From assembly GCF_000025225.2 (NCBI RefSeq), contig NC_013895.2:1178001-1242000 (forward strand): DNA of 64,000 nucleotides. Direction: 5' to 3'. Numbering within the stretch: the first letter of the stretch is position 1; each line of letters opens with the position of its first letter. The notes beneath the pieces were generated by a model. The model saw only the letters and a list, made by a program, of their open reading frames with translations. It did no database searches and was not told the origin of the DNA. This DNA is from Mageeibacillus indolicus UPII9-5 (GTDB lineage Bacteria; Bacillota; Clostridia; Saccharofermentanales; Fastidiosipilaceae). A program made the position numbers and the translations under genes. Below, piece after piece: positions 35,508-51,091 of the stretch.

Positions 35508-36299
35508 TTAACCTATAGACTTATCTCGAGAAAAATAAAGACCATCATCCTCCGTAAATCCCCAACCGGACCAAAAATAAGTATGTGATTCTCCCACCGT
35601 GCGATGAAAATCGTTCTTATATTCCCCTTCAACAGTCTCCAAAACTGCCTGCGAGGCTATTTGATCCGGCTTACCTGGCCGTAAACACCAGGTGTAAAGC
35701 GGACGTGGCAAATTGGAAGAACACCATAACGGCTTAAGCCGGCCGCAGCGAACCGTGTATAAAAACAGATGATTTCTCACCGCCGGAGAATCCGGCTTTC
35801 CGCTGCCTTCATAAAAGCTGTAAGACTTCCACAACGAAAAAAGACAATCCATATCTCCGTCGCCGTTAACATCCTGTAACGCAAACGAATCCACGAACCA
35901 ATACGGGCTGCTTCGCCAAATTTCTTTACCGTTATCGCCGACAAACCTGAGCACTCCGTCATGCAAAGAAACCGTCAACTGACCGATGGCCCCTGTTTTG
36001 TTCACACTAATGCCGCCAACTTCTAATGGCCGAGCTTTTTTCTCGGCAAAAAAAGCACGAAATTCAAGTGTATCACCATATTCGCCATGCCGGCACGTCA
36101 AGCAACTACCTAATCCGGCGGCCGTGCCAAGAGCAATAACCGCTATAAGCAACCCGGCTACCCATCGTTTCCACTTTACCAGCGCATTAAATTTTTGTAC
36201 AACAACAACAAAGCCCAAAGACAACCAACGGCCAGCGGATTTTACCGACTCATTGAACCAAGTTTTCTTTAGTACAGACATAATCTTGCCATACAGCAT
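35508..36299 (-). CDS. Membrane-anchored protein with a calcium-loop-like motif
   Basis: I do not recognise this protein of about 263 residues. It has a basic cytoplasmic N-terminus, one membrane helix (WVAGLLIAVIALGTAAGLG, residues 46-64) and an outside domain of about 200 residues. That domain has DVNGDGDMD at 143-151, which has the Dx[DN]xDxD spacing of calcium loops in FG-GAP or dockerin-like repeats. The frame overlaps the 3' end of the DUF3160 gene by 50 bp. An ATG at 36281 is an alternative start, and neither start has a good ribosome site, so translation may depend on the upstream gene. Confidence 0.6.
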   Translation of the reverse strand: MLYGKIMSVLKKTWFNESVKSAGRWLSLGFVVVVQKFNALVKWKRWVAGLLIAVIALGTAAGLGSCLTCRHGEYGDTLEFRAFFAEKKARPLEVGGISVNKTGAIGQLTVSLHDGVLRFVGDNGKEIWRSSPYWFVDSFALQDVNGDGDMDCLFSLWKSYSFYEGSGKPDSPAVRNHLFLYTVRCGRLKPLWCSSNLPRPLYTWCLRPGKPDQIASQAVLETVEGEYKNDFHRTVGESHTYFWSGWGFTEDDGLYFSRDKSIG

Positions 36300-38487
36300 A
36301 ATATTTGTTCAGTTCGGTCTGCGAAGCTTCTCGCAGTAATTTATGCCATTCATTAATCGTCATCCTTTGACTTAGTGGCACAGTAAACTCGAACTGGCTG
36401 TACACGGCTCCTCGCCCCAATACCACCTTGCCATCACGTGGAAAAGCGACCACGATATTATCGGCAAAGCCGGTAGCTTCCTGCAAAACTTCTCCGTTCG
36501 GGTCGGTAGCCACGTCCGCTACTACCCCGTCGGGATGGAACTCCTGAAATCTGGCCGGATCCAAATCCAAACTATCCATCTCATCTTTTTTGGCCGTCTT
36601 CCAAAAATGCTCCAATTCCGCCCCGTACTGCCTGATAAATTCATACTCTTCCAAACTGCGTGGCGTGTTGGCCAATTCTTTTGTCGCTATATCACCCAGA
36701 CGATCGGCGATATTGTTAAGCTTGTTGAAATGAGTCTGCAACTCAGCCGTGCTTAGTCCCAAAGCCTCAAGTCCGGCAGCAGTTTGCCGTGTCAAAGCGG
36801 CCATGCGCTTATACAAGGTCGGGTTCGGTTCAACATAGCCCCGATCGTCCGGCGGTGGCATATTTCCAGCACTTGCCCCACCCATTTCAGCTATCGGCGG
36901 TTTGCTGTAAAGAGCCGTAGTATATTTCAATTCCGTCCAACTAGCCAAAAATGTGGTGAGCTCTTTGCGTCGCCAGGCATCGTTTTGCATGAAGAACGGG
37001 AAGCCTTTCCGGTCCGCATTATCGGCCAGCGGGCGCAGCATATTAATCCACGACCAATACAGATTGGAGGTCCATACATCTTCCTTCAAATTTTGCATAT
37101 AGTCACGGCACAGCTTCAAATTAGCTGCATATGCAGGATATTTTTTTACGTCAAAGTTTTGTTTCAATATTTTTTCCGCCTCAGCTGAGCCAAGCGCCGC
37201 CGGTATATCCAGACCCTTAGGCAACATCCTTCCTTTCACGGCACGATCCATAAGTTTCTGAAAAATGGCCGCGTCAACGGTGAATCGCTGTCCCATAAAA
37301 CGAAAACCTTTGACGGCTTTTACCTGATCCGGCTGAATTTCTTCCTTATAAATGGGAACTGAATTAACTGCTGGGGGCGGCAATTTGTTGATTAGTTTAA
37401 TTGCCTTGCTCAATTTACCACTGTCGGTAACCTTGTCTTCCGTCATTTCGCCTTGATACACTTCACGCAAAGCAGACTCATAATCAAGCGCGGTTATATC
37501 ATCGCACTCACCAACAAAAAAGTTGATTGTATTAAAAATAGTCTGCCACATTTTTTTGATTTCCGGTTTAACGGTATTTGCTGCCATCAAAAGAGATGAT
37601 TTTAACTCATCTTCAACTGCAGCCCGAAATGTAACTTGCCCGTACCACATGTTCGCTTTAAAGTAGCGTTTCATTCCCTCGGAAAAGATATAATGTCCCC
37701 GCACCTTGAACTGCGAGTAATCCTGCTGGTAGAGATCCGTATCACTTTTAGCCTTGCTACCCAAATTGACAACCGGAGATGGCGCGATGCCGTTGGCTGC
37801 TTCGATTAAACTCATTTCTTGCGCAACCGTCTCGGCAACCTCTTCCGGCGGCTCAAAATTCGGGAATAAAAGTTTGTACGCCACCGCAAAATAAGCTAGG
37901 TTTCGCCGCGCGGCATTGGCAAAATTCCCACCTTTCAGCCGTTCATACTGCTCGGCCGAGGTTCTGAACATTGAGCTGGTCAAATCTTTCAAAGTTTTAT
38001 CCAACGTTTGCCGCTCCACATCCTTCAGGACATAGTCGTACATCAAATAAAATGTGTGCAGCACCGAGTCAGTCGTGATGAAACTCGGTACAGCATTATA
38101 ACGGTTGGTTTCATAAGTATCGTAAAAAGTACTTTTATGCGACGGCAAGACGACAAAACCGTTGCGCTCAATATATTTGGCGGCATCGGGCAAAATATTG
38201 ATGGCAAAATAAAAATCGCCCTGCTCATCGGTGCCGGCGCGGAACTGATTGAGATTGAAAATATTTTTTAGATCCGACTCAACCGCATAAGCCGGAACAG
38301 CCGCCGGACCTTTATATTCGGCGACCTTGCTCACAGCAAAAGCCGGATCGGTGTGAGGTTTGATTGCGATCGGATTGCTCGGATTGCTCGGATTATCGCT
38401 GCGGGCGGAGCCTCCAGGCGTTTCGGTACAAGAGCTTAGCTGGAAAAGTAAAGCTGTAATAAGTAAGAGTGCAAGTGTTTTTTTCAT
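36250..38487 (-). CDS. DUF3160-family lipoprotein
   Basis: This protein of about 745 residues has a lipoprotein signal (MKKTLALLLITALLFQLSSC, with the lipobox LSSC). It contains a long DUF3160 domain, recognisable by FVVLPSHKSTFYDTYETNRY and VPSFITTDSVLHTFYLMYDY. The family is widespread in secreted proteins of bacteria and archaea, and its function is not established. The start at 38487 has CAGGAGG five bases upstream. The longer frame to 38619 adds an unlikely hydrophobic leader. It overlaps the membrane protein gene downstream, so the two form a unit. Confidence 0.85.
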   Translation of the reverse strand: MKKTLALLLITALLFQLSSCTETPGGSARSDNPSNPSNPIAIKPHTDPAFAVSKVAEYKGPAAVPAYAVESDLKNIFNLNQFRAGTDEQGDFYFAINILPDAAKYIERNGFVVLPSHKSTFYDTYETNRYNAVPSFITTDSVLHTFYLMYDYVLKDVERQTLDKTLKDLTSSMFRTSAEQYERLKGGNFANAARRNLAYFAVAYKLLFPNFEPPEEVAETVAQEMSLIEAANGIAPSPVVNLGSKAKSDTDLYQQDYSQFKVRGHYIFSEGMKRYFKANMWYGQVTFRAAVEDELKSSLLMAANTVKPEIKKMWQTIFNTINFFVGECDDITALDYESALREVYQGEMTEDKVTDSGKLSKAIKLINKLPPPAVNSVPIYKEEIQPDQVKAVKGFRFMGQRFTVDAAIFQKLMDRAVKGRMLPKGLDIPAALGSAEAEKILKQNFDVKKYPAYAANLKLCRDYMQNLKEDVWTSNLYWSWINMLRPLADNADRKGFPFFMQNDAWRRKELTTFLASWTELKYTTALYSKPPIAEMGGASAGNMPPPDDRGYVEPNPTLYKRMAALTRQTAAGLEALGLSTAELQTHFNKLNNIADRLGDIATKELANTPRSLEEYEFIRQYGAELEHFWKTAKKDEMDSLDLDPARFQEFHPDGVVADVATDPNGEVLQEATGFADNIVVAFPRDGKVVLGRGAVYSQFEFTVPLSQRMTINEWHKLLREASQTELNKYYAVWQDYVCTKENLVQ

Positions 38488-38673
38488 AGCCGCCTCCTGT
38501 CGCGAACAAAAAATTGCCCTCAAAAATATAATAACCAATATAGCTAATATAACACTATAGAAATACGCTATGGGCATTTTATCATATTTTAAACCAAGCA
38601 TGCCAGCATCATATTTCATTTTTATATTTCAGTTTAATATTTCAATTTAACTTTTCTCCTCCGCAAAAAACAA

Positions 38674-38767: not shown

Positions 38768-40015
38768 TTACTTTTTAAAGTCATCCGGATTCCAGAAGTA
38801 AACTACGCCTTCCGCCTTAATACGATTGATTTCCGCTTCGGAATATCCCAGCTCGGCCAGTACTTCTGCACTTTGTTCACCGATGAACGGCCCACGTTCG
38901 TATTTCGGCACGCCCATCTCCTCAAATTTAACCGGCTGATGCACCAGAGTGCGCTCGTTGCCGTTCGGGTATTTCATCTTATAGAAACAATCATTAGCCC
39001 AAGCTTGCTTGTCCACCAGAATTTCTTCCCAGTTTTGCGCCAAGCTGAAGGGGATATCGGCCTCTGTGAAAATTTTGCTCCACTCCGCCACCGTCTTGGT
39101 GCCGAATGCCGCCATGACAATGTCATAAACTTCACTTGAAGCCTTATTCTTTTGCAAGTTTTGGACCGGGAAATATCTCTCACTGTCAACCAAATCCGCC
39201 CTGCCTATGGCAGTTATGAAACGTTTGTAATACGTGTTGTAATCCGGTGTGCAGGTTTGAATGTAACGGTCATCAGCGGTGTGCCAACAGGCCAGAAGCG
39301 GGTTGTCGGCCTCACGGATATTAATAGGATATTTCGCACCGGTTTCAGTATACTGAGCTGACTGAACCATCATGCCCATGTTGAAAATCGCACTTTCAAA
39401 CAACGACGTTTCAACTTTCTCACCTTTACCGGTCATTTTGGCATGGTAAAGAGCCGCCAGCAAGCCGGCTGCCAAATTCAAGCCTACGTTGTGATCGCCG
39501 ACGCCAGGAACAACATTCATCGGCACGGAATCACGTTGCCGCAACATTTCCAAGTATCCACCACGGGCAAAGAAGGCAGTAAAGTCAAATCCCGGCAAGT
39601 CCTTGTCCGGGCCCTTTTCACCATAACCGGTGACCATGCCATAGACAAGTTTAGGGAAGCGAGTTTTCAGTGACTCATAGTCAAGGCCGGCTCTTTGTAA
39701 CGCACCAACCCGCCAGTTGGTGATCAAGATGTCGGCACCATCCAGCAGTTTAAATAAAATTTCCTTACCTTCCTCAGACTTGGTATTGATAGAAATATTA
39801 CGTTTATTAGCATTTTCCAACTCCCAAGTCGTGTTCTCAAACATGTCGAGCGGACGGCCTTCGGAAGGTGCGGTATAACGCAACGGATCACCGCGCGAAC
39901 TTTCAACTTTAATTACATCAGCTCCCAGATCGGCAAAAAAACGGCCGGCCGTCGCAGCGGCTATAAAGTTGGCAAGCTCCACGACCTTTACTCCCTCTAA
40001 TAGCTTCTTTGACAT
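38768..40015 (-). CDS. Class III (CaiB/BaiF) CoA-transferase, HadA/FldA-like
   Basis: This 415-residue family III CoA-transferase moves CoA from the pathway's product acyl-CoA to the incoming 2-hydroxyacid. The N-terminal LLEGVKVVELANFIAAATAGR and the GADVIKVESSRGDPLRY segment are typical. The catalytic aspartate is expected in LPGFDFTAFFARGG (Asp144). It is the last gene of the cluster, 25 bp after EtfA, with AGGAGG before the ATG. Its family separates it from the class I propionate CoA-transferase of the classical acrylate pathway and fits the had/fld type of reductive amino-acid pathway. The exact acyl group cannot be told from sequence. Confidence 0.88.
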   Translation of the reverse strand: MSKKLLEGVKVVELANFIAAATAGRFFADLGADVIKVESSRGDPLRYTAPSEGRPLDMFENTTWELENANKRNISINTKSEEGKEILFKLLDGADILITNWRVGALQRAGLDYESLKTRFPKLVYGMVTGYGEKGPDKDLPGFDFTAFFARGGYLEMLRQRDSVPMNVVPGVGDHNVGLNLAAGLLAALYHAKMTGKGEKVETSLFESAIFNMGMMVQSAQYTETGAKYPINIREADNPLLACWHTADDRYIQTCTPDYNTYYKRFITAIGRADLVDSERYFPVQNLQKNKASSEVYDIVMAAFGTKTVAEWSKIFTEADIPFSLAQNWEEILVDKQAWANDCFYKMKYPNGNERTLVHQPVKFEEMGVPKYERGPFIGEQSAEVLAELGYSEAEINRIKAEGVVYFWNPDDFKK

Positions 40016-40040: not shown

Positions 40041-41069
40041 TTATTCAGCTTGTTTGGCGGCATGTTGATCAATAGCATCAATTATCGCCGGAATCACCGC
40101 GTACAAATCTCCTACAATACCGTAATCGGCCACTTCAAAAATAGGTGCCTCGGCATTCTTATTGATGGCAACGATTATATCCGAACTCTTCATGCCAGCT
40201 AAATGCTGGATAGCGCCGGAGATACCACAGGCAAAGTAAATAACCGGCTTGACGGTTGTACCTGTTTGCCCAACTTGATATGAATGTTCAATCCAACCGG
40301 CGTCTACGGCCGCTCGGGAAGCCGCAATTGTGCCGCCTAACCGATCCGCCAATTTTTGCAACAGTTTAAAGCCTTCCGCATTGCCTAAGCCCATACCGCC
40401 GGAGACAATATATTTAGCGTCGACGAGAGAAACCTGTTTGCCGATATTTTTGACTACCTCTTCAACCGTTAAACGCAAGTTGGCCGGGGTCAAATCAACC
40501 TTCAGTTCAACAACTTCCGCCTTTCTATCGGGAGCAAATTCAGTTTTGCTCATGACACCGGGGCGAACGGTCGACATTTGCGGCCGATTATCTTGGCAAA
40601 TGATAGTGGCCATCAGGTTACCGCCGAAAGCCGGACGCGTCTGGAGTAATTTTTTATCTTTCGGATCAATTTCCAGCTTAGTGCAGTCTGCGGTCAAACC
40701 AGTGTTGACATCGACTGCCAAGCAAGGGCCAAGGTCGCGGCCGATGTGTGTTGCGCCGAGCAAGACAATTTCCGGTTTATATACTTGAATAGCATCACCA
40801 ATTACTTTGGCATAGGCATCATTAGTGTATTGCTGCAAACGGGGATCGCGTGCCACGTATACTTTGTCAGCACCCCAGCCGGCTAATTCAGCAGTCAGCT
40901 CATCGACATTTTTGTCGCCGAGTAAAACTGCGGCCAATTCTGTTCCGATCTCTTTGGCCAACTTTTGACCTTCCCCCAGCAACTCAGCCACTACCGGGGT
41001 TAGTTTGCCGTCACGTTGTTCAGCAAAAACCCAAACGCCGTGATAATCTTGTATGTTTAAAGTTTTCAT
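40041..41069 (-). CDS. etfA: Electron transfer flavoprotein alpha subunit
   Basis: This 342-residue FAD-binding subunit shows the C-terminal signature [21 protein letters not shown] and, before it, [14 protein letters not shown] and [18 protein letters not shown]. With EtfB it carries electrons between the acyl-CoA dehydrogenase and NADH/ferredoxin. In Clostridia such pairs can bifurcate electrons, but sequence alone does not prove it here. I set the start at the ATG at 41069, with GAGGAGG six bases upstream. A longer frame to 41117 lacks a ribosome site. Confidence 0.93.
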
Positions 41070-41085
41070 AAAATTCCTCCTCGAC

Positions 41086-41871
41086 TCAGATAATGTGCTT
41101 AGCCGCCAGTTTTTCAACCAGAGTTTCCGCCATTGATTTCACACTGCCTTCCAACATTTCACCGGCGCCCTTGAGCGGCGGGGTAAAGGAGCGGAATACC
41201 CGAGTCGGCGATGCTTTCAGCCCGCATTCGTCTGGATTGACTTCAACATTTGTATGATCCCAAACCGTGATTTCAGTCTCATATGCTTTAAAAATGCGAG
41301 CCAGATTCATGTAGCGAGGAGTGTTTAATTCTTTAACCATTGTCAGCAAACAAGGTGTCTTGACGCTGACTACTTCATAACCGTCTTCCAGTTGACGATG
41401 AACTTTTACTTCACCATCTTTGAGTTCGCATTTTTCAACATAAGATACAAAAGGAAGACCAAGTCGACGGGCAACCTGCGGTCCAACCTGAGCGGTATCC
41501 CCATCTATGGCCTGCCGACCGGCAAAAATAATGTCATAATCGGCAATTTTACGAATTCCGGCTGCAATCGTCGTTGAGGTAGCGCAAGTATCGGCTCCAC
41601 CGAAAACACGATCGCTCAACAGGTAAGCGTTGTCGGCGCCCATAGCCAAGCATTCGCGCAACATGGTCATAGCTTGCGGCGGCCCCATGGTAATAACATC
41701 TACCACAACATCTTCATTTTCATCTTTTATACGTAGAGCCTCTTCCAAGGCATTGGCATCATCCGGGTTCAAAATACTCGGCACACCGTCACGAATCAAA
41801 GTTCCCTTTACCGGGTCAATCTTAACCTCATTGGTATTAGGTACCTGCTTTACACAAACTACTATTTTCAT
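41086..41871 (-). CDS. etfB: Electron transfer flavoprotein beta subunit
   Basis: This 261-residue partner of EtfA begins [13 protein letters not shown] and contains the AMP/FAD loop region [16 protein letters not shown] and the ETF-beta segment [10 protein letters not shown]. It sits between the acyl-CoA dehydrogenase (nine bases upstream) and etfA (16 bases downstream). The ATG at 41871 follows GTGAGGTG by four bases. The longer frame starts at a TTG in the ribosome site itself. Confidence 0.93.
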
Positions 41872-41879
41872 CTTGCACC

Positions 41880-43019
41880 TCACTTCAATAAACTGTTGCT
41901 GATAACGATTTGTTGTACCTGAGAAGTTCCCTCATAAATCGTAAAGACACGGCAGTCACGATACATACGCTCAACTTTATAGTCTTTGATAAAGCCATAA
42001 CCACCATGGATTTGCACTGCTTTAGCACAAATTTCGTTGCAAACTTCCGAAGCGAACAATTTGGCCATCGAGCAATAGCGCCCGGCATTCTTATCGTTGC
42101 GATCCTTGAGTTCCGCGGCGTGATAAGTCAGCTGCCGAGCTGCTTCCAGTTTGGTTGCCATCTCAGCCAACATAAAACTTATCGCTTGGAACTTGGCAAT
42201 CGGTTTGCCGAATTGCTTACGTTCCTTGGCATATTGAATGCTTAATTCCAAAGCTCCACCGGCAACACCGATAGATTGTGCAGCAACCCCTAAACGTCCT
42301 ACGTCAAGAGTTTTCATAGCATTGATAAAGCCCATTCCTTCGGCGCCAAGACGGTCTTCCACCGGTACTTTGACATCTTCAAAAATAATGTCTGAAGTAG
42401 CACAACCGATGATTCCCATTTTGTCTTCAGGTTTACCACAAGTAACGCCAGGTGCCTTCATATCCACCACGAAAGCAGTGATTCCTTTGACACCCTTAGT
42501 AGCATCGGTGCGGGCATAGACAACTGCATAATCAGCGAGCGGCGCTTGAGTGATGAAGCACTTGCGGCCGTTGAGTACATAGTGATCGCCATCCAATACG
42601 GCTGAAGTAGTCATTGAATTAGGATCAGAACCGGCTCCAGGTTCAGTCAAAGCAAAGCAAACCTTTTTTTCACCCGAGGCTATCGGCAATAAGTATTTTT
42701 GTATTTGATCTTTCGTGCCTGAAATCAGCAAAGGACCGCTGGACAAAGAGTTGGCGGTAGATACATATATGCTGGCAATCGCGCTTATTTTGGATATTTC
42801 TTCCATAACCATCATATAGGTTACATTGTTGCCGCCGGCACCGCCCAAATCGCGGGGTACTTTAATTGCAAACAGTCCTGCTTTGGCAAATTTCCGCAAA
42901 ATTTCTTCCGGGAAAACGCCGCTTGCCTCTACTTCATCGAGGACTTCTTTAGTCAGTTCCTGCTCAGCAATTTGTCGAGCTAACTGTCTAATCATTTCTT
43001 GTTGTTCCGTAAAAATCAT
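41880..43019 (-). CDS. Acyl-CoA dehydrogenase (enoyl-CoA reductase of the cluster)
   Basis: This 379-residue FAD enzyme has the family signatures CFALTEPGAGSDPNSM, QFGKPIAKFQ and QIHGGYGFIKDY, with the catalytic glutamate in TIYEGTSQVQQIVIS near the C-terminus, as in short-chain butyryl-type enzymes. In the cluster it should reduce the 2-enoyl-CoA made by the dehydratase, with the adjacent EtfAB as electron donor. It is equivalent in role to AcdB/AcdA of Clostridium had/fld clusters. The ATG follows AGGAGG, and that site overlaps the stop of the ligase gene. Confidence 0.93.
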   Translation of the reverse strand: MIFTEQQEMIRQLARQIAEQELTKEVLDEVEASGVFPEEILRKFAKAGLFAIKVPRDLGGAGGNNVTYMMVMEEISKISAIASIYVSTANSLSSGPLLISGTKDQIQKYLLPIASGEKKVCFALTEPGAGSDPNSMTTSAVLDGDHYVLNGRKCFITQAPLADYAVVYARTDATKGVKGITAFVVDMKAPGVTCGKPEDKMGIIGCATSDIIFEDVKVPVEDRLGAEGMGFINAMKTLDVGRLGVAAQSIGVAGGALELSIQYAKERKQFGKPIAKFQAISFMLAEMATKLEAARQLTYHAAELKDRNDKNAGRYCSMAKLFASEVCNEICAKAVQIHGGYGFIKDYKVERMYRDCRVFTIYEGTSQVQQIVISNSLLK

Positions 43020-43030
43020 TACGCTACCTC

Positions 43031-44584
43031 CTAGCTTTTATTAACAGCGGCCAACCGTTCTTGGGCTTGCCGATGTATTTTCTTCAAATCAACTTTTCCG
43101 CTTGCCAAGCAAGGAAATTCATCAAAAAATAGTATATATTTAGGTATTTTGTATCCAGCCAAATGTTCAACCAAATCAGCTCTAATTATTTCAGCAGTGT
43201 AATTTGCTGTCTTTTGAGGCACGATGCATGCACAAATTTCCTCCTGCAGAATCGGATCTGGCACCCCGAACACGCTCACAGCGGCAATTCCCGGTAAAGC
43301 AGAAATCGCCTTCTCAATCTCCACCGGCGAAATATTCTCGCCGCCGCGAATAATAATCGTTTTACTTCGCCCGGTCATAACCAAATTGCCATCTTGGTCA
43401 AACTCGCCGAGATCACCGGTGTCGAGCCAGCCATCGGCGGTAAAGGCAGCAAGCGTTTCCTCAGGCTGATTATAATATCCCTGCATGACATTATATCCGC
43501 GCACTTGAATCTTTCCGCTCTCGCCACGGGTAACCGGATAGCCGTCATTATCAACGATTCGCATCTCGACTCCGTCGATAGGAACACCTACATTGTCCGC
43601 CGTAGCTACCTTGCCATTGCACCGCGGCACAATGGTACAACAAGGTGATGTTTCCGTCTGCCCGTATGAGGGTTGAATCGCACAGCCGTCCGCAAACATT
43701 GATTTTACTTTTATAAAATCTTGCTGGTAAATTGGTGATCCAGCAATAATTCCACTGCGAACACTAGATAAATCGTAGTCTCGCCGCGCCGGATTGGCGT
43801 ACATCGACAAGTACATTGAAGGTACACCGTTCAAGACCGTGCATTTGTAGGATTGGATTTTTGCGAAAGCCGGCACACTGCGGAACCTTGGTAAAACGAC
43901 CAAGGTCATCCCGGTATGAAGAGCTGTCAAAATACAGCCAGTCAAGCCGAAGCAGTGAAAAAACGGCACGGTCACACATACCAGATCATCCTTTCCCCAC
44001 TGCATAGCGTCTACCATAGCTTTAGCATTGTTTACCAAGCTGTAATGACTCAGTTGAACCGCCTTAGGCAACTGAGTGCTGCCGGATGTACACATAATCA
44101 GTGCAGTACTGTTCGGTCGGGCAAAATCTACGAACGGCGGCCTGTGCAAATATTGGTCAGCCTCGTCGCTTATATTTGCCATTGACAAAAGATTTAAATT
44201 TCCGGACCGACAATTTACTTGATTAAGGGTCCCGGCAAAAAGACATCCTTTATAGCCTTCGCCGTATATCAGAAAGTCAATTTCAACCCGGTCGCACAGG
44301 GAAATCAGTTCTTCATCCGACAAAGCCGTATTCAAAAGCACCGGCACTGCGCCGATACGGCACAATGCAAGTAAGGTCAATAAATATTCACCCGAGTTTA
44401 TACTCCATACACCTATACGCCGACCTGCGGTTATTCCCTGTTGGAGGAAGTAGTAACACCGGGCATCAACTTTGCGATCAATTTCTCCCCAAGATAAGGT
44501 GAAATCATCCGCGATCACTCCAATTTTTTCCGGATACATTGCTGCAACCTGACGCAATAACCGGCTAATAGTAAGTACAATCAA
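43031..44584 (-). CDS. Acyl-CoA ligase (AMP-forming)
   Basis: This ANL-superfamily ligase of about 517 residues activates a carboxylic acid to its CoA ester with ATP. The P-loop reads CTSGSTQLPKAVQLSHYS. The hinge and C-terminal motifs are DGWLDTGDLGEFD, MTGRSKTIIIRGGENISP and the catalytic lysine in ASGKVDLKKI. In the cluster it would prime the CoA cycle that the CoA-transferase then maintains. I prefer a TTG at 44584, preceded by AAGAGG. The ATG at 44644 has AAAAGGA directly against it, too close to work well, so the N-terminus is uncertain by 20 residues. Confidence 0.88.
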   Translation of the reverse strand: MIVLTISRLLRQVAAMYPEKIGVIADDFTLSWGEIDRKVDARCYYFLQQGITAGRRIGVWSINSGEYLLTLLALCRIGAVPVLLNTALSDEELISLCDRVEIDFLIYGEGYKGCLFAGTLNQVNCRSGNLNLLSMANISDEADQYLHRPPFVDFARPNSTALIMCTSGSTQLPKAVQLSHYSLVNNAKAMVDAMQWGKDDLVCVTVPFFHCFGLTGCILTALHTGMTLVVLPRFRSVPAFAKIQSYKCTVLNGVPSMYLSMYANPARRDYDLSSVRSGIIAGSPIYQQDFIKVKSMFADGCAIQPSYGQTETSPCCTIVPRCNGKVATADNVGVPIDGVEMRIVDNDGYPVTRGESGKIQVRGYNVMQGYYNQPEETLAAFTADGWLDTGDLGEFDQDGNLVMTGRSKTIIIRGGENISPVEIEKAISALPGIAAVSVFGVPDPILQEEICACIVPQKTANYTAEIIRADLVEHLAGYKIPKYILFFDEFPCLASGKVDLKKIHRQAQERLAAVNKS

Positions 44585-44688
44585 TCCATTACCTCTTAAA
44601 ATCGGCTGGGCAACGGCAATTGTTCGTTGCCCGTACCGACACATTCCTTTTGTAAATAATTTTGGTGCGCCTTTCAGCTGACCTATTG

Positions 44689-44748: not shown

Positions 44749-45870
44749 TCAGCTCAAAAGATCGACAAATGTTTCAATAGCCGTCTGGGCCTGATCAAAA
44801 CGATCCATTTGGCTATCAATTTCAATTAACAGAACAGGTATTCCGGCCGCTTGCAAAGCCCTGCGTAACGGAACATAATCGAATTCTTCTGGATCGCTGA
44901 ATTTGGTCAGGAAGACAATAACGCCACCGGCCTTAGTCTTTTGAGCCAAGTCAACCAACATCGGACCGCGCTTTTTGTCTTTATCATACAACAATGAGCA
45001 GTAATCCATCCGGGCAAACTTATCCACCAATTTTTCGATAGCTGTTGAACCTTCCGTAGCGTCAACGCGGTACTGACGGGACTCATGCAAAACGTCATCG
45101 GCAACAATATTTATGTTGTTATCTTCCAAGATCTGCAAAAGATTATTGTTATCAACGATGATGCCTGAAGTAATAATTCGCAATTTTTTGTGTTCAACCG
45201 GTTGGTTCACCAGCTCATCCAATAACGCCCGCACCAACTTAGTGTGATCTTCTTTGCGCATGAACCAGGCACTCTTGAAAACGTCACGCCGGCGGCATGG
45301 GGTAAGGCAATCGTATTTCGCGCAGGCAGCGGCGAAATCACGCATAGCCGCATTATGAGCGTTGTATATTTCAATCGATGCCGCCAATTTTTCATCGGTA
45401 AGAACAGCACCGGTCAATTCATTCAGTCGCTTTTCAATACGCTTATATGCAGCTTTGGTGAACTCACGACCGCAAGGTATGGCGCGGTTTTGCGGATAAA
45501 CGGCCGGAATAAACGGAACATTTTTGACAGCGTATTTCCAGTTCTCTCCCAAGGCTTTCAAGCTATCGCTTAAAGAAGGGATAACGATTGCAGTCATACC
45601 GTCATACTTACCTTTAATCCCCAGTTCAAGCATAGTTTGCAGCAAAGAAGGAATGAAAGCCGGGAAATAAGCTTTAGCATCTTCAACTTGCATATAAGCA
45701 CCCCAAACGCCGAACGGAACGAAGCCCATCGCATGTATAACTTCTTCCGGGGTATAGCCAGGAGCACAACCAACGACCTTTTCACCAGCATCTAAAAACT
45801 TTTTGAATTGGACAGCCGGAGTTTCGGCGATCTCGTGAAATTGATTGAATAGTGTTTGTAAATCCGCCAT
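44749..45870 (-). CDS. hadC: 2-hydroxyacyl-CoA dehydratase, beta subunit lacking cluster cysteines
   Basis: This 373-residue protein matches HadC/FldC/LcdB along its length: GYTPEEVIHAMGFVPFGVWG, YPQNR, RKEDHTKLV, ADDVLHESRQYRVD and CSLLYDKDKKRG. The dehydratase removes water from (R)-2-hydroxyacyl-CoA by a ketyl-radical mechanism. Characterised beta subunits have cysteines in PAFACS, MCDTL and KFCDPEE. Here these read PAFIPS (Pro74), LSDSL (Ser101) and KFSDPEE (Ser325), while Cys291 (DYCSLLYD) remains. The beta [4Fe-4S] cluster is therefore probably absent or changed. The frame is intact and the start has AAGGAGG upstream. It is two bases downstream of the alpha subunit gene. Confidence 0.9.
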   Translation of the reverse strand: MADLQTLFNQFHEIAETPAVQFKKFLDAGEKVVGCAPGYTPEEVIHAMGFVPFGVWGAYMQVEDAKAYFPAFIPSLLQTMLELGIKGKYDGMTAIVIPSLSDSLKALGENWKYAVKNVPFIPAVYPQNRAIPCGREFTKAAYKRIEKRLNELTGAVLTDEKLAASIEIYNAHNAAMRDFAAACAKYDCLTPCRRRDVFKSAWFMRKEDHTKLVRALLDELVNQPVEHKKLRIITSGIIVDNNNLLQILEDNNINIVADDVLHESRQYRVDATEGSTAIEKLVDKFARMDYCSLLYDKDKKRGPMLVDLAQKTKAGGVIVFLTKFSDPEEFDYVPLRRALQAAGIPVLLIEIDSQMDRFDQAQTAIETFVDLLS

Positions 45871-45872
45871 GA

Positions 45873-47141
45873 TTAAGCCTCCTTAGCTGATGCTTTGCGG
45901 TCGGCCATAATTTCAGCCAAACCCTGTACCCGGGTATCATACTGTGCTTCTGAGAAGTTACGCGGATCAGCCTGGTCACCATCAAAGCTGACTACAGGTA
46001 TATCGCAGGCTTCACCGATTTGGCGACTCATTTCATACATGAATCCGCTCCACAGTTTGCACGAACGGTTGGTGTGTACCAAAATACCTTCAGCTTTGGT
46101 ACGCTTGACTATCGCAATACGATTATCGCGCGCTTTTTCCAAATTGCAGCAGTTAGGCACTTGACAATAGCACCGAATAAGGCCATCAAAATCATCGTAC
46201 AGCATGCCGAAAGCGTCAGCATAGATAGTCGCAACCATGTTAATACCACGAGATTTCAAGCCGGTCGAAGTGACACGCAAATGCGGCCAGCACGCGATAC
46301 CTTCAAACATGATACGATGAACCTCTTCAGCTCTGAAAGTACTCGTTCCGTTTTTAACTGCTTCAGCATATTCTTTGGTCAAAGCTTCAAACGCTTCAGC
46401 CGCTTCAATTCGGCCGCGGGCACATACTGCAACCGCCATGTGATTGAGTAAATCAAAGCCATTTAGCGGTGACGGTTGGAATCTGGTATAGCCGGTAGCT
46501 TCGAGCCAAGCCTTAGAAGTACGATTGGAAATTTTCATTACTTCCTTGAAACGCTCATCTGACCATTTTTTACCGGTAATTTCTTCCAGCTGATGGATGG
46601 CATCCAAGAATTGTCCCTTGACATAGGCAATGTGCTCAGGGCTCACATCATAGTCAGGATTGAAGGGGATGTCGATCAATATCATAGGAATATTCAATTC
46701 TTTCGAAATATTCTCATACCATTTGATCATACAGTTACAAATATTGTTGCAGCACAGGACAAAATCCGGCAAAGGCATATCCTGCTCCGGCGCACTCTTG
46801 GTTTTCATGTAGGCCAGACTGATTCTGGCGTAAGCACAAATATCGTTGGAATAACCGTCATCCTCGGCTATCTCACACATTTTTGTACCCGCACCACGCG
46901 CCGATATAGCTGCCGCCTGATTCTCAGGATAGCAGACCTTCAGTCCCAAGGTTTCAAAAATTTCCTCGGGGAAGTTGCTTGCACACCAGCCGATTTTTTC
47001 GCCCCGTTCTTTAGCCTCGAATACCTCGCGATAGTGTTTGACTATCACCTGGCCGAGCTTGTACTTGGCGGAATTTGTGTCAATTACTTTCGGCTTCTTT
47101 ACTTCCGGTTTTGCTGCTTCTGTCTTAACTTCTTCTGCCAT
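45873..47141 (-). CDS. hadB: 2-hydroxyacyl-CoA dehydratase, alpha subunit
   Basis: This 422-residue catalytic subunit binds the substrate CoA ester at its [4Fe-4S] cluster. The three cluster ligands expected from HadB/LcdA are present in the DICAYAR, CCNNICN and HTNRSCKLWS segments. Other family landmarks are KWYENISKELNIP, SPLNGFDLLNH and FDGDQADPRNFSEAQYDTR. Unlike its beta partner it has lost none of them. It lies between the activator gene (92 bp upstream) and the beta subunit, with GGAGG eight bases before the ATG. The substrate is not determined by sequence; lactate, phenyllactate, indolelactate and isocaproate-type acids are all possible. Confidence 0.93.
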   Translation of the reverse strand: MAEEVKTEAAKPEVKKPKVIDTNSAKYKLGQVIVKHYREVFEAKERGEKIGWCASNFPEEIFETLGLKVCYPENQAAAISARGAGTKMCEIAEDDGYSNDICAYARISLAYMKTKSAPEQDMPLPDFVLCCNNICNCMIKWYENISKELNIPMILIDIPFNPDYDVSPEHIAYVKGQFLDAIHQLEEITGKKWSDERFKEVMKISNRTSKAWLEATGYTRFQPSPLNGFDLLNHMAVAVCARGRIEAAEAFEALTKEYAEAVKNGTSTFRAEEVHRIMFEGIACWPHLRVTSTGLKSRGINMVATIYADAFGMLYDDFDGLIRCYCQVPNCCNLEKARDNRIAIVKRTKAEGILVHTNRSCKLWSGFMYEMSRQIGEACDIPVVSFDGDQADPRNFSEAQYDTRVQGLAEIMADRKASAKEA

Positions 47142-47233: not shown

Positions 47234-48013
47234 TCAGCTTGCTGAACGCATTTCATATGCAAACAGCGCTGCTCCGAAAGCCCCCATAAATTGGGCGTCC
47301 GGCGAATAATGAATAGTTACCCCAAGTTGGCGTTCCAAGGCTCGTCTGACTCCCCCGTTACGTGCTACTCCGCCGCTCATGCATACTTCTTCTCTTATCC
47401 CAACGCGTTTGGCCAGCGAAGCCACCCGCGCCGCAACCGAATCACAAATTCCAGCTATCACATCTTCCCGCTTATTACCCGATGCCAGCTGCGAAATAAC
47501 TTCAGATTCCGCAAACACCGTACAAGTGCTGGAAATACTAACCGATTTTTCAGCTTTGAAAGCTTCCTTTTCTAAGTCGCTTATGTCAAGTTTTAAGATA
47601 TTTGCCATAACATCGAGGAAACGCCCAGTGCCAGCCGCACACTTATCATTCATCAAAAAATTAACCAATTTGCCTGATTCGTTTACGGACATAACTTTCG
47701 CATCCTGACCGCCAATATCGATTATCGTCCGTGCGGCCGGAAAAACATAGCTTACACCTTTGGCATGGCAAGACAATTCGCTCATTTGCTTGTCAGCGCC
47801 TTGAAAAATTTTACGCCCATAGCCGGTAGCTACAATAAAAGCTATATCTTCACGCTTAATCTTCGCTTCCTGTAACAACTGACTCATAACTTGCTCCGGT
47901 CCGTCCGTTCCAATACCGGCAATCATCAGTGTTTTGGAGTACTCTTTACCGTTTTCATCCAACAAAACACATTTTGATGTCGTTGAACCGATGTCAATTC
48001 CAAGATAGTACAT
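47234..48013 (-). CDS. hadI: 2-hydroxyacyl-CoA dehydratase activator (ATPase)
   Basis: This 259-residue actin-fold ATPase (BadF/BcrA/HgdC family) holds one [4Fe-4S] cluster between two monomers and injects one high-energy electron into the dehydratase using ATP. The phosphate loop is LGIDIGSTTSK. The cluster cysteines are Cys125 (KCAAGTG) and Cys164 (STCTVFAES). The second ATP loop is MSGGVARNGGV. It precedes the dehydratase genes as in had and fld clusters. No strong ribosome site is visible at the chosen ATG. Confidence 0.93.
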   Translation of the reverse strand: MYYLGIDIGSTTSKCVLLDENGKEYSKTLMIAGIGTDGPEQVMSQLLQEAKIKREDIAFIVATGYGRKIFQGADKQMSELSCHAKGVSYVFPAARTIIDIGGQDAKVMSVNESGKLVNFLMNDKCAAGTGRFLDVMANILKLDISDLEKEAFKAEKSVSISSTCTVFAESEVISQLASGNKREDVIAGICDSVAARVASLAKRVGIREEVCMSGGVARNGGVRRALERQLGVTIHYSPDAQFMGAFGAALFAYEMRSAS

Positions 48014-48255: not shown

Positions 48256-49416
48256 CTACTTATTGGCAAATGCTTTAATCTTTTTGTGGCCGATGATAAT
48301 AGTCGGAATGATAACCACAACAATACAAGCATAGGCCAGATATTTATACCCTTTAGCCACAAGAGCATCTAACCCGATCAAAGACACGAAACCGCAAATT
48401 ATAAGCAATACTACAACAACTGCCAAGTCGCGCCCTACACCAGGCTTCATCGGTATAAATTTGCTGTATCTAGCAATAACGGCAAATGCGAAGCTTACCA
48501 AAGTAGTAATAATGGCCAGCAACAGAATCAGCACGTACAAATACCGCAGAACGTCGATTCCTAAATAATTGGCAACTTCCAAATTAGGAATGAAGGTTTT
48601 GGAGGCACGGTTAGGATTGAAGAATTCGCCCAGAATATTCGGATAAGCGAACAGAAGGAAGGCAACGCCGTAAATTAGCAGTGCATTAGTAACTATGCCC
48701 CACATGGTAGCTTTCACTGAATCTTTGCGAGTTTGAATACCTTTAGCAACCGAAACCACATTGGCCATGTTACCAGCTGATTGGAAACCGGCATACAAGA
48801 TAGCTGACCAGATTGCCGGGATTAACAGGCTGCCGCTGAACTTAGGCAACGTGGCCGGCAGATCGGCACTCATTGCCCAGTGTCCGGCAAAATTTGCTTT
48901 GGCGGAAACGAGGCCGACAACGATAACAACACCTACGGCAAGCAAAATCACCAAGGACATGAATGTCGAAGAAGCGCGCACGACGGCAGACCCGAATATC
49001 GTCAAGACAACCGTTATGATACAAAGTAATGCTATGCCGAAATTAATGCTCCAGCCGAACTGTTGGTTGAGGGCTTTAGCTCCCATGGCAATGCACGAAC
49101 CGACTACAATAAAAACAGTCATCACATAGACGAATTCAAAGAATGTAGAGAAAAACTTCTCATACGGGGCAAAAAAGCTGTTGGCAAAAGACTTGAAGTC
49201 GTAAGTCTTGGCTAAGCGAGCATATTCAACCGAATAGTAAACGCACATGCCCAAAATAATCATTGCGATTAAGCCGGTGAACAATCCCCAAATGCTGAAT
49301 TTGCTGTAGAATGCCGCGATCTGATTGCCAGAAGCTGCACCAGGACCGCAGTGAGCACCGAACCATACCGCAGCTACCCCCAAATATACAGGGAGCCCCT
49401 TTTTACTACTACCCAT
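48256..49416 (-). CDS. YkvI-type membrane transporter, copy 1
   Basis: This 386-residue integral membrane protein has about ten helices. It resembles the YkvI family, which is related to the APC superfamily and has no settled substrate. The N-terminal VWFGAHCGPGAASGNQ is a broken helix with small residues, as expected for a substrate site. It is clearly a paralogue of the protein at 51191-52357, identical over most of its length. Lying between the LarA-like racemase and the dehydratase activator, it may import the 2-hydroxyacid or export the reduced acid. The ATG follows TTGGAGG by six bases. Confidence 0.8.
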   Translation of the reverse strand: MGSSKKGLPVYLGVAAVWFGAHCGPGAASGNQIAAFYSKFSIWGLFTGLIAMIILGMCVYYSVEYARLAKTYDFKSFANSFFAPYEKFFSTFFEFVYVMTVFIVVGSCIAMGAKALNQQFGWSINFGIALLCIITVVLTIFGSAVVRASSTFMSLVILLAVGVVIVVGLVSAKANFAGHWAMSADLPATLPKFSGSLLIPAIWSAILYAGFQSAGNMANVVSVAKGIQTRKDSVKATMWGIVTNALLIYGVAFLLFAYPNILGEFFNPNRASKTFIPNLEVANYLGIDVLRYLYVLILLLAIITTLVSFAFAVIARYSKFIPMKPGVGRDLAVVVVLLIICGFVSLIGLDALVAKGYKYLAYACIVVVIIPTIIIGHKKIKAFANK

Positions 49417-49789: not shown

Positions 49790-51091
49790 TTACAAATTAT
49801 TAATCAAGAAATTGTCTTTATCGAATTTTAGATCATACGGTTCGGATATCAATTCCACGTCACTACGATCTTTTATGGTCTCCCAATAAGGCAGCGAAAC
49901 CTCAATTTCTTGCATGTGTAAAGTGTTAATTATATGGGCTATTTTCGCTTGAGTATAATCTATGCCGAGGCAGGTGCGAATACATACTTTTATAGCATCC
50001 AAATCAGTCTCGACAAACATCGGAATAACCCCGCCAGTCAAAATATTAACTGTCGCCACGTTCGTCCAGGTAGCTTGGAAATCAATGTCGTTCAAGCACC
50101 TCCTGGTAGTGATATCAGCACCGCGAATCCCGGCACCGTTGTGGTGGCTTGCCTCAGAAATACCACGAATGAATATTTTTTGGCAGTTCAGCTCTTTTTC
50201 GAATCCCGGTGAGTTACTCCGTCCGGTGATATTGGGGTCATGGCCGTTACCACTGATATTCTTGCCGATTTCATCGATTATCAGCAGATCAAGATTAGGA
50301 TTTTTAAATTTGGCGATTCGGCGTTTGGCAATTTCCAATAGAGCAGCATCTCGTTCCAAGAATTTTTCCGGCTTGATCACCTCAAGTTCGCTTATGTCAT
50401 CATAGGCGTTTTGCACAATGCCGACACCGAAAGCTACCGGTGCTTTTTCAAGAAACAGACGGCAAACCTTCGGGATTCGCTCGCCGAAGCTTTGGAACCC
50501 CATACGATGGAACATTGACGCACCCTTGTGGTTGGCGATTCCTATTGCCATCATTTTCGCCAAGCCGCTTTCGTGAGCAGCGCGGAAATCAGTGTGTGGC
50601 TTAATTTTGTTCATGATAATAATGCCATCTGATTCATAAGCGTAACGATCGCAAAACACCGGTGTTCCGTCATCCAATTTGCCTAACTCGACCACATCCA
50701 TCGTTGCCTTTATCGGGACTCCCATAGCAGCTTCGGTAATCCCATAACCTTCAAGGATTTCCAGCTGACCGGCAACGGAGGCCGCACCGTGGCTACCCAT
50801 GGAAGGAATGATGAAAGGTTCCGCGCCTAGTTCCTGCAAACATTCTATCAACGTCCGCACCATAGTTCCCAGCCCGGGAATCCCGCGGCTGCCGACCGTG
50901 ATGCAAAGTTTTTTGCCCCGCCACTTAGTTTCACCGGCAAATTTTTCATGCATTTCACGGCGCAAATGCTCCGCCAAATCAGCGATATAATCAGACTCAT
51001 AGATCTGCCTTATTCTGACAAACTTAGGTATTTTAACTTCGTCCAATCCTGGAATGGCAAAATCTATTTTGTCAAACGATAAAAACTGCAT
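49790..51091 (-). CDS. LarA-family (DUF2088) nickel-pincer hydroxyacid racemase
   Basis: This 433-residue protein is related to lactate racemase LarA, whose family racemises or epimerises 2-hydroxyacids with a nickel-pincer cofactor. The LarA catalytic set has plausible matches at near-identical spacing: Arg69 (GSRGIP), His101 (GSHGAAS), His166 (KIKPH), Lys179 (SGLAK, the cofactor-linking lysine) and His195 (SMFH). The usual D-x-T-R-P start of that loop reads VGSRGIP here, so it belongs to a divergent subgroup. No LarB/LarC/LarE maturation gene is in the window. Its place between two transporters and the dehydratase genes suggests it converts the L-hydroxyacid to the (R)-isomer the dehydratase uses. 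The ATG follows AAAGGGGG. Confidence 0.82.
   Translation of the reverse strand: MQFLSFDKIDFAIPGLDEVKIPKFVRIRQIYESDYIADLAEHLRREMHEKFAGETKWRGKKLCITVGSRGIPGLGTMVRTLIECLQELGAEPFIIPSMGSHGAASVAGQLEILEGYGITEAAMGVPIKATMDVVELGKLDDGTPVFCDRYAYESDGIIIMNKIKPHTDFRAAHESGLAKMMAIGIANHKGASMFHRMGFQSFGERIPKVCRLFLEKAPVAFGVGIVQNAYDDISELEVIKPEKFLERDAALLEIAKRRIAKFKNPNLDLLIIDEIGKNISGNGHDPNITGRSNSPGFEKELNCQKIFIRGISEASHHNGAGIRGADITTRRCLNDIDFQATWTNVATVNILTGGVIPMFVETDLDAIKVCIRTCLGIDYTQAKIAHIINTLHMQEIEVSLPYWETIKDRSDVELISEPYDLKFDKDNFLINNL

Follow-up and report, generated by a model that had tools for sequence, protein, structure and literature searches.

Does a 2-hydroxyacyl-CoA dehydratase, whose accepted mechanism passes an electron through two iron-sulfur clusters, need both of them? 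The question was raised by a gene pair in the 64,000-nucleotide stretch of the Mageeibacillus indolicus UPII9-5 genome analyzed here (the window; contig NC_013895.2, positions 1,178,001 to 1,242,000). A prior sequence-only reading had claimed that the beta subunit of this enzyme has lost three conserved cluster cysteines whereas the alpha subunit keeps its own. We have first verified this observation, and it proved correct. The beta ORF (44749-45870, minus strand) encodes 373 aa in an intact frame and matches the HGD-D family (PF06050, 242 bits), with HadC (3o3m_B) as the closest solved structure. In the alignment with HadC, Pro74 (CCT, 45649-45651), Ser101 (AGC, 45568-45570) and Ser325 (AGC, 44896-44898), all on the minus strand, occupy the positions of the cysteines of FPAFACS, MCDTL and KFCDPEE that hold the relay [4Fe-4S] cluster. 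BzdN, MbdN and DCCP also have cysteine at these sites and, because these are more distant family members, the change is a loss and not an ancestral state. The 23 nearest relatives fetched by homology from named genomes (48-57% identical) keep the cysteines, one of them (locus L025) ending at its contig edge before the third site.

The alpha subunit (45873-47141, minus strand, 422 aa) also carries the PF06050 domain (247 bits), matches the HadB model with 508 bits and retains the substrate-cluster cysteines C102, C135 and C361, which are invariant and correspond to BzdO Cys95/128/380. The activase (archerase) gene (47234-48013, minus strand; TIGR00241, 283 bits over cutoff) encodes C125 and C164, the two candidate cluster ligands, which are conserved. 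The beta subunit scored 414.5 bits against the HadC equivalog NF052456, below its curated cutoff of 700. The genome is a single contig of 1,809,746 bases with only one PF06050 pair and one activase, so that no second copy can cover for a broken enzyme.

The surrounding genes, all on the minus strand, make a lactate-to-propionate route through acryloyl-CoA likely, although the substrate is inferred. The beta gene follows alpha and the activase, and the three genes cluster with an AMP-forming acyl-CoA ligase (43031-44644, PF00501), an acyl-CoA dehydrogenase whose best match is the acryloyl-CoA reductase model (41880-43019; NF042972, 428 bits, below the cutoff of 640), EtfB-like (41086-41883) and EtfA-like (40041-41117) genes, assigned from position and homologues in related operons, and a family III CoA-transferase (38768-40015; PF02515, 286 bits). 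A nickel-pincer-cofactor isomerase group 22 gene (49790-51091; NF052515, 475 bits over the cutoff of 400) lies beside the cluster. The intact (Cys-Cys-Cys) cluster L118 has the same gene set, including a 57% homologue of this isomerase, suggestive of a racemase or epimerase feeding the pathway. The window pair is nested with acrylate-pathway operons, its alpha subunit being 77-79% identical to those of the lactyl-CoA dehydratase-type loci L031, L033, L004 and L032, whose beta subunits keep Cys-Cys-Cys. Of these, L031 and L033 lie in the same kind of gene cluster (activase, acyl-CoA dehydrogenase, Etf, CoA ligase and CoA-transferase). Among the other genomes of the window's family and order that were searched, only four weak matches (22-24% identity) were found, so the cluster was probably acquired horizontally or lost in the relatives.

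We have then investigated whether the loss is peculiar to this enzyme by extending the search to the class, the phylum and two families (families f34 and f60 of the sample were taken to be Peptoniphilaceae and Peptostreptococcaceae). This gave 104 non-redundant alpha/beta pairs, of which 78 have Cys-Cys-Cys, 13 Tyr-Asp-Asn, 10 Ala-Ser-Ser, one Pro-Thr-Ser and one, that of the window, Pro-Ser-Ser, while one is truncated at a contig end. Among the 103 full-length pairs the trio is thus either complete (78) or entirely lost (25), and none has lost only one or two cysteines, as expected if the three residues act as one unit, the cluster site. No close relative with Pro-Ser-Ser was found in the samples from the window's order, class or phylum.

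Regarding INDEPENDENCE, the alpha tree, which does not contain the trait, requires four changes between complete and lost, all forced by branches with SH-aLRT of at least 95, and the beta tree built with the ligand segments removed gave the same result, although both are quick trees with SH-aLRT support only. The four losses correspond to the window, inside a clade with 25 intact lactyl-type pairs; to nine Ala-Ser-Ser pairs of lactyl type; to thirteen Tyr-Asp-Asn pairs, which share a starred clade with intact L050, L101, L104 and others; and to L088 with L089, among intact HadBC-type pairs. Holding the window and the Ala-Ser-Ser clade together was rejected (p-AU 9e-5). The suggestion of the sequence-only reading that the loss may mark a new subfamily is therefore not right as stated, since the window pattern is a singleton nested among Cys-Cys-Cys enzymes and the loss is convergent. 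The same reading had named close homologues all having cysteine as a sign of sequencing error; the nearest relatives do have these cysteines, but this does not refute the finding, because separate lineages show the same loss.

The loss lineages are found in coherent pathway operons with their own activase. The Tyr-Asp-Asn pairs, 2-hydroxyglutaryl-CoA dehydratase-type (for example L044, L112, L121 and L123), lie with an activase, a CoA-transferase pair and the alpha, beta and biotin-carrier subunits of a Na+-translocating decarboxylase, the gene set expected for the 2-hydroxyglutarate route of glutamate fermentation; one of the four losses thus lies next to genes of an energy-conserving decarboxylase pathway. 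The Ala-Ser-Ser and L088/L089 pairs lie with activase and CoA-transferase III, and with acyl-CoA dehydrogenase and Etf genes in most of the loci fetched. One genome (G880) carries two different dehydratase systems (L115 and L116), and both beta subunits lack all three cluster cysteines.

We have next examined what changed together with the cysteines. In beta, positions 74, 101 and 325 are the only columns that changed from a conserved sister residue in all four lineages, whereas 78, 124, 327 and 336 changed in three. Alpha C102, C135 and C361 are cysteine in all 25 loss pairs, and the activase cysteines are kept. Alpha position 128 (46758-46760 in the window), next to the alpha cluster loop, is Val in 25/25 loss pairs against 20/78 intact pairs, possibly a compensation, but with only four independent comparisons this is not significant. 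Activase position 224 (47342-47344) is Arg in every loss operon examined and first looked like a perfect marker with four intact examples. However, although intact activases mostly have Asn, Lys, Asp or His, Arg also occurs in several of them, and the residue is only a lead. Beta is more diverged than alpha predicts in the window and in the Ala-Ser-Ser and L088/L089 lineages, less so in Tyr-Asp-Asn. Even so, dN/dS of beta in the loss clades was 0.04-0.13, similar to 0.03-0.16 in intact betas, so they are under purifying selection and maintained as functional proteins; the window, lacking a close relative with its pattern, does not contribute to these values.

Structure prediction with AlphaFold2 using 24 homologues gave a beta model with pLDDT 88.9 and pTM 0.90, whereas a prediction without an alignment was uninformative (pLDDT 35). 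The best match was HadC, with a TM of 0.95 (3o3n_B). In the model, the three lost-ligand positions lie just before the N-termini of helices 75-85, 102-114 and 328-341, so the scaffold of the pocket is kept without its ligands. Compared with HadBC (PDB 3o3m/3o3n), the enzyme shares the alpha/beta fold, the alpha cluster cysteines and an activase gene, but has replaced all three cysteines with which HadC holds the relay cluster. Class I benzoyl-CoA reductase BzdNO and the double-cubane protein DCCP share the superfamily fold and carry an [8Fe-9S] double cubane where the window beta has no cysteine ligands.

According to the published model, the activase sends an electron to the beta cluster, from which it moves to the alpha cluster and the substrate, beta storing it between turnovers (PMC11574389; PMC8473912, which letters the subunits differently). 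Both reviews agree with the premise of the sequence-only reading that both subunits of characterized enzymes carry a cluster. Its interpretation is partly supported: the proposal that this enzyme may work with the alpha cluster only is the best-supported reading, and on stronger grounds than the window alone could provide, given the complete loss in four lineages with intact operons and purifying selection. In our view, which we hold with fair confidence, this is a 2-hydroxyacyl-CoA dehydratase, probably of lactyl-CoA type, working with a single [4Fe-4S] cluster. What the sequences establish is the loss of all three beta ligands, its all-or-none recurrence at least four times, the maintained selection and the intact partners. 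The absence of a cluster in beta, catalytic activity, direct ATP-driven transfer from the activase to the alpha cluster at the substrate, the resting of the electron there between turnovers and a structural and docking role for beta are inferred. Direct transfer is geometrically plausible by analogy with BzdNO, whose substrate cluster is reported to be solvent accessible and covered by the activase (PMC11971306), but it departs from the current reviews. If so, the relay cluster would be dispensable for the ketyl-radical reaction, although its loss may cost activation rate or lifetime of the active state. It is more likely than not that these enzymes form a natural, repeatedly evolved class of one-cluster dehydratases, which would overturn electron transfer from activase to beta cluster as a requirement of the mechanism. 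They would extend by one more step the family's known trend of losing cluster parts (double cubane to single cluster), and they provide natural variants to find out what the relay cluster is for: activation rate, electron storage or oxygen tolerance. A text search of open papers, which did not extend to subscription articles, found no report of dehydratases lacking the beta cluster, and PMC11971306 describes the second HAD subunit as hosting a [4Fe-5S] remnant of the double cubane. Early analyses of Acidaminococcus 2-hydroxyglutaryl-CoA dehydratase reportedly found about one cluster per heterodimer.

Other explanations appear unlikely. The beta cluster could still be present, held by oxygen ligands (Ser101 and Ser325 here; Asp101 and Tyr74 or Asn325 elsewhere) plus an exogenous thiol. 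Oxygen ligands can bind Fe-S clusters, Ser and Asp are listed as possible cluster ligands (PMC11574389), three of the four lineages have Ser or Thr at 101 and Ser at 325, and C291 is kept in the window. However, position 74 became Pro or Ala in three lineages and cannot ligate, the four lineages use different residue sets, C291 is lost in the Ala-Ser-Ser and HadBC-type losses and Ser, one base away from Cys, is also the cheapest mutation. A metal site relocated to new cysteines seems no more likely. The window has beta C183, C188 and C192 (CAKYDCLTPC, 45295-45324, minus strand) and C133 (45472-45474), and alpha C324, C331 and C332 (CYCQVPNCC, 46146-46172, minus strand), which are absent from the intact sister enzymes except for C188 in L007 and L008. 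Three of the beta cysteines form C-x4-C-x3-C and lie at a helix end, loop and next helix start in the predicted model. Yet, although clustered in sequence, the private cysteines are only mildly numerous (beta rank 7 and alpha rank 5 of 104), and the other loss lineages do not share the set, apart from C133 in L088 and L089.

Decay of the window beta into an inactive dehydratase is similarly doubtful. Window beta is less similar to its sisters than alpha predicts (mean z -1.33), but the intact relative L033 is almost as divergent (z -1.07), the frame, conserved motifs and predicted fold are intact, alpha is 66-79% identical to lactyl-type relatives, the operon is complete and the other loss clades are under strong purifying selection. 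A sequencing or assembly error, to which the singleton pattern might point, is not credible, since it would require at least four base changes hitting exactly the three ligand codons in a complete single-contig genome, with the same trio lost in 24 other pairs. Chance is not credible either, the trio being all present or all absent across the 103 full-length pairs.

Other features were recorded around the cluster, all on the minus strand. A DUF3160 protein of unknown function (36250-38619, 739 bits) is encoded next to the CoA-transferase end. A 386 aa protein without a Pfam match (48256-49416) is probably a membrane transporter, and its homologues lie beside dehydratase operons in L117 and L119. 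Finally, a consensus scan alone indicated terminator-like hairpins inside the CoA ligase gene (44338-44368).
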